DNA of 40,105 nt, from NCBI GenBank assembly GCA_023269855.1, contig JAGDWP010000125.1, forward strand, positions 1 through 40,105, in the 5' to 3' direction. Of this stretch, positions 35,451 through 40,105 are shown piece after piece. The translations under genes and the position numbers were made by a program. This stretch comes from Nitrososphaerales archaeon (GTDB lineage: Archaea > Thermoproteota > Nitrososphaeria_A > Caldarchaeales > Wolframiiraptoraceae). The notes under the pieces were generated by a model. It searched no databases, had not been told where the DNA came from, and saw only the letters and a program-made list of their open reading frames with translations. Position 1 is the stretch's first letter. Each line of letters starts with the position of its first letter.

Positions 35451-36357
35451 TCATTTGATCTCATCCATAATGACATTCAAAAATTTTCCCCTGACCGACC
35501 GGTCAAAGAGAAATATGCAGAGATTTAAGACCAATAGAACAACAAAACCTGCTATTCCAGTAACACCAACGGTTAAGTCATCGCCTCCTCTAATCATTAT
35601 AATTGCTAATCCTGCATTAGCATTAAGGGAGCCATGAAAAATTCCGGCAGCAATAACAGATTTTGACCTTAGTCTAACAATAGCTAATATAGGGGAAAGA
35701 AGCAAACAAAAAATTATCATCATAAATACTCCAATAACTGGATTTTGTGGATAGTTATGCCCTTGAAGGATGAGCGGTGCATGCCATATCCCCCATATTA
35801 GCCCGACAATTGCAGATGATTTCCAAAAGCCCATATGACCAAATTCTCTTAGAAGGAAACCTCTCCATCCCAATTCCTCACCAAATCCGGCAACAGCATT
35901 TATAGTAATTCCAGCGATTAATCCCTGGATTAAGGCAATCCAAAAGATATGGATGGGGAAGATGGCCATTTGTTCTTTCATTTGCTGAAGCTGTTCAGGT
36001 GGTATGATTCCTTCGAACCTTTCAAAAAATCCAGCTATATCAGGAGAATAAGTTACTTCAGGGATGAGGAAGCTAATTCCCATTGTGGCAAAAGCGATAA
36101 GTGGTGGTAGTAACCAAGCTACCAACCACCACCTGTTTATTTTAAAGGAAATTCCGAGGGGCTTTATCGGTTCTTTGTAAAATTTCTGAACTACGATTGC
36201 AGATGTCATAGGAATGAACATGATAGCTGTCCCTATCATCATCGATTCGATGGTATGCCACTTTCCACCAAAGACAAAAAATAAGATTGCTATAAGCCAA
36301 CTGAGTCCAAAGGTTATTCCAATAAATAATCCTACTTTTTTTGACTCTCTTATTCAT
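35451..36357 (-). pseudogene. CPBP-family intramembrane metalloprotease, apparently frameshifted near its start
   Basis: 35451-36242 frame has GFGEELGWRGFLLREFG and GIWHAPLI; upstream in-frame ESKKVGLFIGITFGLSWLIAILFFVFGG lacks a start, MNKRVKK is in another frame across an A7 run. Confidence 0.6.
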
Positions 36358-36539: not shown

Positions 36540-37110
36540 CTATGGTGTTACTGTCTTTAAGAGTATTTTGGTTATTAGTTCTACATCTATCCATCTATGC
36601 TTCCTAGAGAGGAGATATTCTCTGAAGAATGTTTTGAATCTTGATATTGCTGTCTCAGCCATCCATCTCCTACCATAACCTACTATCCTACTCCAAGCTC
36701 TATACCCATAATCTCTAATAATTCTTGTAGCTGAGCTCCTGGATGGAGGTCCTCTATCCGTCCTAGCATCTCCTAGACTTAATTATTGGAGTTACCCCGT
36801 TACCTTCTAAGTATCTTATGAACTTTCTAGAATCGTATGCTTCATCACCTATAACAGTAACTACATTCCTAGACTTTGAGGATTCTTCAATCATCTTTTT
36901 AGCAAACTCAGAGTCGTGTACCATACTGCTTGTCCTCTCCATGTATATTATCTCTTCAGTCTTAGCATCTATAGCGAAATGTATCTTGAGATATCTCCTC
37001 CTAGAATACTTCTTCTCAAGCCATGAACTATACCTTCTCACTTTTACCCCCGTAGAGTCTAAGACTATTACGATTGGCTCAGGAGATTCTCTCAGACTTT
37101 TATACTAACA
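36540..37110 (-). pseudogene. IS5-family-like DDE transposase remnant, N-terminally truncated and frameshifted
   Basis: IVIVLDSTGVKVRRYSSWLEKKYSRRRYLKIHFAIDAKTEEI ... GDEAYDSRKF, then in a shifted frame DARTDRGPPSRSS...GYGRRWMAETAISRFKTFFREYLLSRK...LLKTVTP*. Confidence 0.85.
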
Positions 37111-37877: not shown

Positions 37878-38486
37878 TTGAACTTGAAGCAAAAACTTGG
37901 GTTGAAGATCTTAAGGATCCTAATACGTAATAGCGATTGCAACGTGGTTGGACTTCTATGTAGTAAGAAGATAGAAGCCGAATTTAAGAAGATAAGGATT
38001 AGTGAATCACAGTCTACTCATCTATTGAAGTTGTCTAGACCTATTCGAAAAGATGAGTTGTCAAGTTTTCCAGGCTCATATATGCTGCTACCAAATAATT
38101 ATCTCTGGATAACAACTGCAAGTTGTTCAGCTTGTAGAGTCTACTCTCAGCTTCCAGTAATAGTTGACTCAGTCTTCTATGTAGAGCCGCTGGGCATTAT
38201 CTCAAAAATCGTGATACCTGGCAGATTATTCCAGAAAAAGCTTATTGAAAACCTCAAGAATGCAGGTTTAGATGTCGAGGTTCTCTCAGTGAGAGACTTC
38301 GAGGATTATGAGTTGACTCAGAAACAGAAGGAACTTCTAACAACTCTGTTAAAGTCAGGCTACTTAGATAGTAAGAGAGAGACTAAGATGAAAGATATCG
38401 CATTCCTTCTAGGATTAAATCCTTCAACCGTCTCTAGAATGTATAGATCTGCAGTAAAGAGAATTCTTATCAGAACATTTGACTAG
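37878..38486 (+). CDS. HTH_10 (bacterio-opsin activator-like) transcriptional regulator
   Basis: YELTQKQKELLTTLLKSGYLDSKRETKMKDIAFLLGLNPSTVSRMYRSAVKRIL; internal CSAC motif. Confidence 0.75.
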   Translation: MNLKQKLGLKILRILIRNSDCNVVGLLCSKKIEAEFKKIRISESQSTHLLKLSRPIRKDELSSFPGSYMLLPNNYLWITTASCSACRVYSQLPVIVDSVFYVEPLGIISKIVIPGRLFQKKLIENLKNAGLDVEVLSVRDFEDYELTQKQKELLTTLLKSGYLDSKRETKMKDIAFLLGLNPSTVSRMYRSAVKRILIRTFD

Positions 38487-38572: not shown

Positions 38573-39145
38573 ATGGCCCCCCAGCTTTTTATCGAGTATG
38601 TATATTTCGCCATAATATCGATAGTAATCGGCTTCATAATAGCTTTCTACATATTAACTCAAAGAAGCGGGAAGAAATCAGAAGATCCAGAAGATAGTAA
38701 AAGTGAGAGCAGGGGAATGAAGAAGGGAAAGAGGAGATGGTTGATCTTCTTATTCATCATAGTAATTATCGGAAACATACTAATGCTATCTCCAGTACTA
38801 CCATCTGCAAGAAATGCATTATGGTTGGATAAAGAACCAGAGATAACTATTACTATAGAAGTGAAAAACTACGAGTTTATACTACCGGAGAAGCCGATAA
38901 CTATTCCAGCAGGCGTACCCGTAGAATTTATCGTAAAATCCCATGACGTTGTTTACGGTTTCGGGGTATTCAGGAAAGATGGGTTAATGGTTTTCCAGAT
39001 GCAAGTTGTTCCACAGCCCTACGTAAACCGTATCGTATGGGTATTCGATGAACCCGGCTACTATGATCTGCGATCAACCGAGTATAGTGGACCTAAACAT
39101 CCATACATGTATGTTGCGGATGCTATACATGTAGTGGGAGGATGA
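38573..39145 (+). CDS. Heme-copper oxidase-type subunit II lacking CuA cysteines
   Basis: Two N-terminal TMs, cupredoxin domain VKNYEFILPEKPITIPAGVPVEFIVKSHDVVYGFGV...GYYDLRSTEYSGPKHPYM. Confidence 0.82.
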   Translation: MAPQLFIEYVYFAIISIVIGFIIAFYILTQRSGKKSEDPEDSKSESRGMKKGKRRWLIFLFIIVIIGNILMLSPVLPSARNALWLDKEPEITITIEVKNYEFILPEKPITIPAGVPVEFIVKSHDVVYGFGVFRKDGLMVFQMQVVPQPYVNRIVWVFDEPGYYDLRSTEYSGPKHPYMYVADAIHVVGG

Positions 39146-39151
39146 GAATAG

Positions 39152-40105
39152 ATGAATGAAGAAGAAAGGAAGATTCTCTCAATAAGGTTTGTTGTTGTTT
39201 CATTAATCTTTCTAGCTCTAACGGGGATCGAAGGAATACTAATGAGGTTCAGAATCATGAATTATCTAACTGACTTCTTTGATGAAAAGCATTTCTATTC
39301 CATGATGACGGCTCACCCATTCGTCGGCATATATGGATGGGCATACATGGCAGTGATGGGTGCATTCTACTTTCTTGTACCATACATTCTCAAAAAAGAT
39401 GTTTATAGTAAGAAAGCTGCTTATGCTAGCTTCTGGTTAATGATAATAGGTGTCCTAACATTATGGACTACTACATTCATAACACATTATGCTCCATTAT
39501 ACACACTCTATTGGCCGATACCTGTCGCCTATAATATAATTGGCTGGGAATTACATAGCATACTATTCTTCGGACTGGGCGTATCCTTGATACTTGCCTC
39601 AGTACTAGTATTCTTTGGGAACATGTTTGCAACAATCTTCCTGCCTCCACGTCATACTAATGGAGCATCTGTCAGCCCATGGTACATAATGAAAGAACTA
39701 TTAATAACAGCGTTCGATCTTGACAAGATTAAAGCGAAGCTTCACCGAATACCAGAATATGCTTCAAAAGCTTCAAATTATCCAGTATTCGTGGTCGCAG
39801 TCTTTAGAGGATGTGTTGATACAACTCTTAATGCATTCGTCATCTGTGGCGTAGGAGTATTGTTAACTGTCTTCGCAGTATCTCACTTCATCCCAGGGGC
39901 AGCCATACCGGTCACGGCGATAGACCCATTAGTCTATAAGAATGTGTTCTGGTGGGGTTTAGACTTAATCGCTGATGGAAACGTATTGATCTTTACTGCT
40001 GGAACATGGTATCTCATCGTACCACTCCTTCTGAATAGAAGACTATATGGAATCTGTAGTCATGGTATTCACCGACGGGTGATTGATGAATTACCATCAT
40101 ATATG
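39152..40105 (+). CDS. Heme-copper oxidase-superfamily subunit I, 5' part (318 codons, open at right edge, missing from ORF track)
   Basis: Hand translation MNEEERKILSIRFVVVSLIFLALTGIEG...MMTAHPFVGIYGWAYMAVMGAFYFLVP...FWWGLDLIADGNVLIFTAGTWYLIVPLL; overlap-free start 7 nt after subunit II. Confidence 0.8.
   Translation, partial: MNEEERKILSIRFVVVSLIFLALTGIEGILMRFRIMNYLTDFFDEKHFYSMMTAHPFVGIYGWAYMAVMGAFYFLVPYILKKDVYSKKAAYASFWLMIIGVLTLWTTTFITHYAPLYTLYWPIPVAYNIIGWELHSILFFGLGVSLILASVLVFFGNMFATIFLPPRHTNGASVSPWYIMKELLITAFDLDKIKAKLHRIPEYASKASNYPVFVVAVFRGCVDTTLNAFVICGVGVLLTVFAVSHFIPGAAIPVTAIDPLVYKNVFWWGLDLIADGNVLIFTAGTWYLIVPLLLNRRLYGICSHGIHRRVIDELPSYM

Follow-up and report, generated by a model that had tools for sequence, protein, structure and literature searches.

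At the end of the window, by which we mean the whole stretch of 40,105 nucleotides analyzed here, the last open reading frame starts at 39152 and stays open up to the final base. An earlier note, made from the letters alone, had read its product as a divergent heme-copper oxidase-like subunit I with an unusual metal site, possibly from one of the proposed non-canonical NO reductase families. One such family is gNOR (norGH), proposed by Sievert et al. 2008, Hemp and Gennis 2008 and Murali et al. 2024, as these are cited in PMC8756737 and PMC11388526. It is described as a quinone-oxidizing norGH NO reductase (PMC8906906); PMC8756737 Table A4 states that it has no proton-pumping channel and lists it, with active-site residue D, for Sulfurimonas, Sulfurovum and Persephonella. 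The question is whether the gene encodes such an enzyme, an O2 reductase with an odd CuB site, a heme-copper enzyme with some other task, or a product of decay or misassembly.

A subunit I gene on two contigs

The source genome is assembled in 131 contigs (1.64 Mb, 96% complete), of which the window is contig C18. Residues 1-300 of the ~522 residues of the catalytic subunit I, comprising helices I-VI, are encoded at 39152..40051 on the plus strand; this fragment scored 79.6 bits against the Pfam COX1 model, which is over the cut-off, and was 78-81% identical to full-length orthologues from the same genus. The other half lies on contig C9 (L006:9763-10422, minus strand) beside rpl10, where 221 of the ~522 codons encode residues ~302 onward. 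Together the two contigs supply the 522-residue protein minus one or two residues. The join is supported because the order L1, HTH_10 regulator, subunit II, subunit I, L10 is unbroken on single contigs of same-genus orthologues (L058, L060). The C9 half also settles a point that the earlier note had left for checking, namely the remaining CuB His pair and the heme His of helix X: the HH and H-x-H motifs are both there, intact.

The earlier note was right that the rest of the gene lies outside the window, but the gene sequence itself ends at 40051 and the last 55 bp are foreign. Homology of subunit I to its relatives stops at residue 300-301, and the 55-bp tail (40051..40105, plus strand, outside the gene) encodes residues absent from every relative. 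The tail is most likely a chimeric assembly tip, because it exactly matches part of galT on another contig of the assembly (L026, contig C37). The C9 side of the break likewise carries 55 bp of unrelated sequence (L006:10423-10477), for which a sequence search found no second occurrence in the assembly. As 55 bp is a typical assembly k-mer length, both tails look like a k-mer artefact. An intein, an intron or an insertion at the window end was ruled out by the exact 55-bp match to galT. The galT gene that shares this tail adjoins a gene for a Rieske-type [2Fe-2S] protein, apparently split across two frames (L026:785-1273).

A chimeric contig end naturally raises the suspicion that the altered active site is itself the mark of a pseudogene or of misassembly. 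Decay does occur in the genus: the sister genome G026 has lost the gNOR genes except for the last ~70 codons of subunit I, which remain between the HTH_10 and L10 genes (L041:1072-1770), and the cassette is therefore dispensable. Against decay or misassembly at the window's own locus, both halves of subunit I keep an open frame and show purifying selection (pN 0.13-0.14 vs pS 0.66-0.79), and the gene order given above is intact on single contigs. The Asp pair described below is moreover invariant in 80 independent loci, which refutes an artefact as the source of the Asp site itself. Taken as a whole, an explanation by decay or misassembly is extremely improbable, and we treat the gene as genuine.

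Helix VI metal site and the remaining ligands

The hand translation of the helix II and helix VI regions in the earlier note was confirmed, with MTAHPFVGIYGWAY in helix II and KNVFWWGLDLIADGNV in helix VI. Three positions of the window matter here. The predicted low-spin heme ligand of helix II, H55 (39314..39316, plus strand), is invariant in 35/35 aligned gNORs. In helix VI, D271 (39962..39964, plus strand) is matched by alignment, spacing and hhalign with the first CuB/FeB His, and was found in 80/80 homologues by motif and 35/35 by alignment. Four residues on, D275 (39974..39976, plus strand) is likewise invariant and occupies the position held by the cross-linked Tyr of oxidases and by the FeB Glu of cNOR (PMC8756737 Table A4 gives D as the gNOR active-site residue), so that the second Asp, which the earlier note had matched to the NOR Glu, falls on the oxidase Tyr position as well.

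A motif scan recovered WWGLD[LM][IV]ADG in helix VI of all 80 homologues, and a His in this segment in none of them. Outside helix VI, the His ligands (one in helix II and two each in helices VII and X) did not vary among the 35 aligned and 80 motif-scanned relatives; one homologue misses the helix X motif through replacement of its W, yet keeps both His in the alignment. Five of the six His that the superfamily carries in helices II, VI, VII and X are thus kept, and the helix VI His is replaced by Asp. In helix VIII, E344, T341 and T347 are conserved in the alignment.

Which of the two Asp stands in for the His depends on the register of helix VI. The conserved DP lies 13 residues before the ligand position in gNOR (34 of the 80 homologues, those with a matchable motif), as it does in the O2 reductases having DP there (12 sequences). 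The HH of helix VII follows the ligand position at a distance of 50 residues in gNOR (51 in one sequence); O2 reductases have 49 and cNOR has 51. An hhalign comparison of gNOR with cNOR ran without gaps through this region (WWVIHLWVE against WWGLDLIAD) and paired D271 with the His. Because both spacings and the gapless cNOR alignment agree, we favor D271 in place of His and D275 in place of Tyr/Glu, and the earlier note's alignment on the WW pair, which put Asp at the CuB/FeB His, is upheld. Aligned with O2 reductases alone, hhalign opened a 4-residue gap in helix VI and paired their His with D275. This pairing appears less likely because it needs a gap within a membrane helix and a compensating insertion.

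The model of the closest full-length orthologue, made with AlphaFold from 35 sequences and without cofactors (pLDDT 85, pTM 0.87), is a complete heme-copper subunit I with a TM score of ~0.8 to bacterial and mitochondrial oxidases. Because its fold, its sequence homology and each of its other ligands agree with those of the superfamily, subunit I belongs there by descent and carries a variant site, much as the earlier note had supposed. The profile alignment with A-/B-type O2 reductases extends over 472 columns (E 7e-48), and gNOR shares their fold and remaining ligands; unlike these enzymes, which have a His and a cross-linked Tyr in helix VI, gNOR has Asp at both places. With cNOR and qNOR it shares a helix VI carboxylate four residues past the first ligand position, but they keep the first His (HxxxE, as in HLWVE) and the window protein has DxxxD. 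The cNOR sequence is only remotely similar to gNOR (hhalign Probab 17%). The heme-copper NO reductases eNOR, sNOR and bNOR (CuANOR) likewise have two subunits laid out as in oxidases. At the Tyr position, where the window protein has Asp, PMC8756737 Table A4 gives them Gln, Asn and Asn.

Could the protein nevertheless reduce O2, as a quinol oxidase whose CuB site is unusual? It matches Pfam COX1, its partner subunit is CoxB/CyoA-like, and its profile matches were to CtaD, QoxB, CyoB and SoxB, albeit all far under cut-off. On the other hand, neither of the known places for a cross-linkable Tyr holds one in any relative: helix VI has D275, and the cbb3-type place in helix VII (position 325) has Ala, Ser or Gly. 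The lack at both positions counts against O2 reduction. The first CuB His is likewise absent in every relative, in the tree the family stands apart from the A/B-type oxidases sampled (support 100/100), and the host genus has a cytochrome bd-type oxidase besides. O2 reduction is accordingly very unlikely, and NO remains the favored substrate. Two findings would have spoken against the earlier note's reading, a His conserved at another place in helix VI and a position within a standard oxidase family; both were looked for, and neither was found.

Family membership, subunit II and the probable electron donor

A family scan of named genomes, from which 80 homologues were fetched, gave matches in Caldarchaeales, Geothermarchaeota, Crenarchaeota MAGs, Chloroflexi and Campylobacterota (Sulfurimonas, Sulfurovum, Nitratiruptor), and further matches in Bacteroidetes, Acidobacteria, Omnitrophica and one Myxococcales MAG. 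Scanning viral_contigs with the family alignment returned no relative, and plasmids yielded distant oxidases only. The Sulfurimonas and Sulfurovum proteins align over residues 9-520 at ~42-45% identity. In the one Sulfurimonas and one Sulfurovum genome inspected, the other recognized heme-copper enzymes are only cbb3 (CcoN) and cNOR (HLWVE), so the Asp-bearing protein corresponds to the gNOR published for these genera. Judged by its sequence, the window protein is a gNOR from the archaeal genus Geocrenenecus (Caldarchaeales, 'Aigarchaeota'), which gives a name (PMC8756737 Table A4) to what the earlier note could only call a possible non-canonical NO reductase; NO reduction itself would follow by analogy. 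The family and its D residue are already known, and this member is new.

Within the family, the tree resolved an archaeal clade that includes the window sequence, a group of Chloroflexi and Crenarchaeota, and a group of Campylobacterota and Bacteroidetes. Full-length alignment and tree thus place the window protein in the same family as the gNORs of Sulfurimonas, Sulfurovum and Persephonella, with which it shares the helix VI Asp pair, HH and H-x-H. It also shares with them a CuA-less cupredoxin-type subunit II, encoded immediately upstream, in place of a cytochrome c. It differs in belonging to a separate archaeal clade (~43% identity to the Campylobacterota proteins) and in its setting, the archaeal genes being accompanied by an HTH_10 gene and, in several Geocrenenecus genomes, lying within the L1-L10 ribosomal region.

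The subunit II gene (38573..39145, plus strand) was recognized from CoxB, CyoA and SoxA profile matches, all under cut-off, and from motif comparison. Its product has lost the CuA ligands, the first His being replaced by Tyr and both Cys by Ser (DVVYGF...STEYSGPKHPYM). The STEY[SA]G core of this variant recurred in every relative with an identified subunit II, with one exception; for L074 the search returned an unrelated protein. Since subunit II is without CuA, the natural reading is that quinol would be the electron donor, which agrees with the description of gNOR in PMC8906906.

The exception, which stands on a single low-coverage contig, is the subunit II of a Thermofilaceae MAG (L073:1713-2285, the same as L039:910-1482), whose CuA motif is intact (DVTHGF...CTEYCGFRHSEM) with all ligands present: His, Cys, Cys, His and Met. 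The L073 subunit I is sister to that of L079, which is CuA-less (support 97/95), and a tree with L073 outside the remaining gNORs was rejected (AU p 0.008). The L073 subunit II groups with the archaeal set, its exact placement being weakly fixed. These relationships suggest that CuA was regained in the L073 line, or else was lost repeatedly with identical three replacements.

Genomic setting and a possible role

Upstream of subunit II the window carries an HTH_10 transcription regulator (37878..38486, plus strand; PF04967) with a conserved CxxC (SCSAC), and before it the gene for ribosomal protein L1 (37153..37818, plus strand; PF00687), which forms one flank of the cassette; rpl10, on C9, forms the other. 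The HTH_10 gene is syntenic in G000, G026, L058, L059 and L060, and lies nearby, at another position, in L063, L067, L068 and L039/L073. In haloarchaea, NarO, a protein of the HTH_10 type with Cys ligands, regulates denitrification. Conserved synteny makes the window's HTH_10 protein the probable regulator of the gNOR cassette. Among the neighbors in Sulfurimonas, Chloroflexi and other archaea, no shared accessory gene was found besides subunit II and the archaeal HTH_10; the Dehalococcoides copy is flanked by a Crp-type regulator and a UbiA-family gene. Between L11 and L1 the window also holds a CAAX-protease-like gene (35451-36242) and a transposase DDE fragment (36763-37041).

In the Geocrenenecus genomes, gNOR was the sole full heme-copper enzyme found. 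Two apparently membrane proteins of 171-176 aa in the source genome (L007:1222-1749, minus strand, and L008:5405-5917) show weak similarity to the C-terminal part of COX1 only (E ~5e-5 to 8e-5), and there is a comparable small COX1-like match in G. huangii (L152); they are possibly small cousins of subunit I. Family searches found none of NirK, NirS and NosZ in Geocrenenecus, the window's genome included. TIGR02376 had no match in the genus and, elsewhere, multicopper matches under cut-off only; PF02239 had no matches, and TIGR01580 gave weak molybdopterin-oxidoreductase matches only. In the wider order, NosZ occurs in 4/11 gNOR-bearing genomes vs 2/33 others (Fisher p 0.027, a test that ignores phylogeny).

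These patterns bear on whether the enzyme might have a different substrate or role: it could, for instance, dismutate NO, carry out chemistry on nitrite or sulfur species, or act as a sensor. We know of no gNOR enzyme that has been purified and tested, and of no characterized parallel to an Asp2His2 site. The absence of NirK, NirS and NosZ means that the organism's own genome lends denitrification no support, which leaves room for another function. Against this, Sulfurimonas, a holder of gNOR, is a denitrifier, NosZ is enriched among gNOR-bearing genomes, and the pair of carboxylates by the second metal is reminiscent of the Glu in cNOR and qNOR. Another substrate or task is quite unlikely on balance, even though the family is proposed and biochemically uncharacterized (PMC11388526).

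We therefore return to NO reduction, and think that the gene product is probably the catalytic subunit of a heme-copper NO reductase of the gNOR type, which belongs to a Caldarchaeales (Geocrenenecus) archaeon and would work as follows. Electrons would enter from membrane quinol, subunit II being CuA-less, and pass through the low-spin heme (H55, H412) to a binuclear center of high-spin heme (H410) and a non-heme metal. This metal, which may be copper or another, would be held by H321 and H322 of helix VII and by one or two helix VI carboxylates (D271, D275). Two NO would be joined at the binuclear center to give N2O and water; that NO is the substrate is suggested by family placement and by a carboxylate near the metal as in cNOR. 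The enzyme may serve to clear NO of outside or side-reaction origin, under control of the adjacent HTH_10 protein. Removal of NO appears the likeliest role, more so than denitrification in Geocrenenecus, because no NO-forming denitrification gene was found in the genome. It is unlikely, by comparison, that three departures hold together: a distinct site of 2 His and 2 Asp, possibly with iron or another metal for copper; a task in Geocrenenecus beyond denitrification-linked NO reduction; and a regained, working CuA in L073.

A gNOR with an Asp-Asp site is thus the only heme-copper enzyme found in a hot-spring archaeal genus whose family is described as anaerobic and thermophilic. Members of the gNOR family, which general models score as cytochrome oxidase only, occur in Caldarchaeales, Geothermarchaeota, Chloroflexi, Bacteroidetes and others. 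If gNOR reduces NO, its hosts would be overlooked sources of N2O; if it does not, the family would be a misnamed enzyme. In both cases, the tolerance of the binuclear heme center for loss of a CuB His becomes a testable question through the Asp2His2 site.
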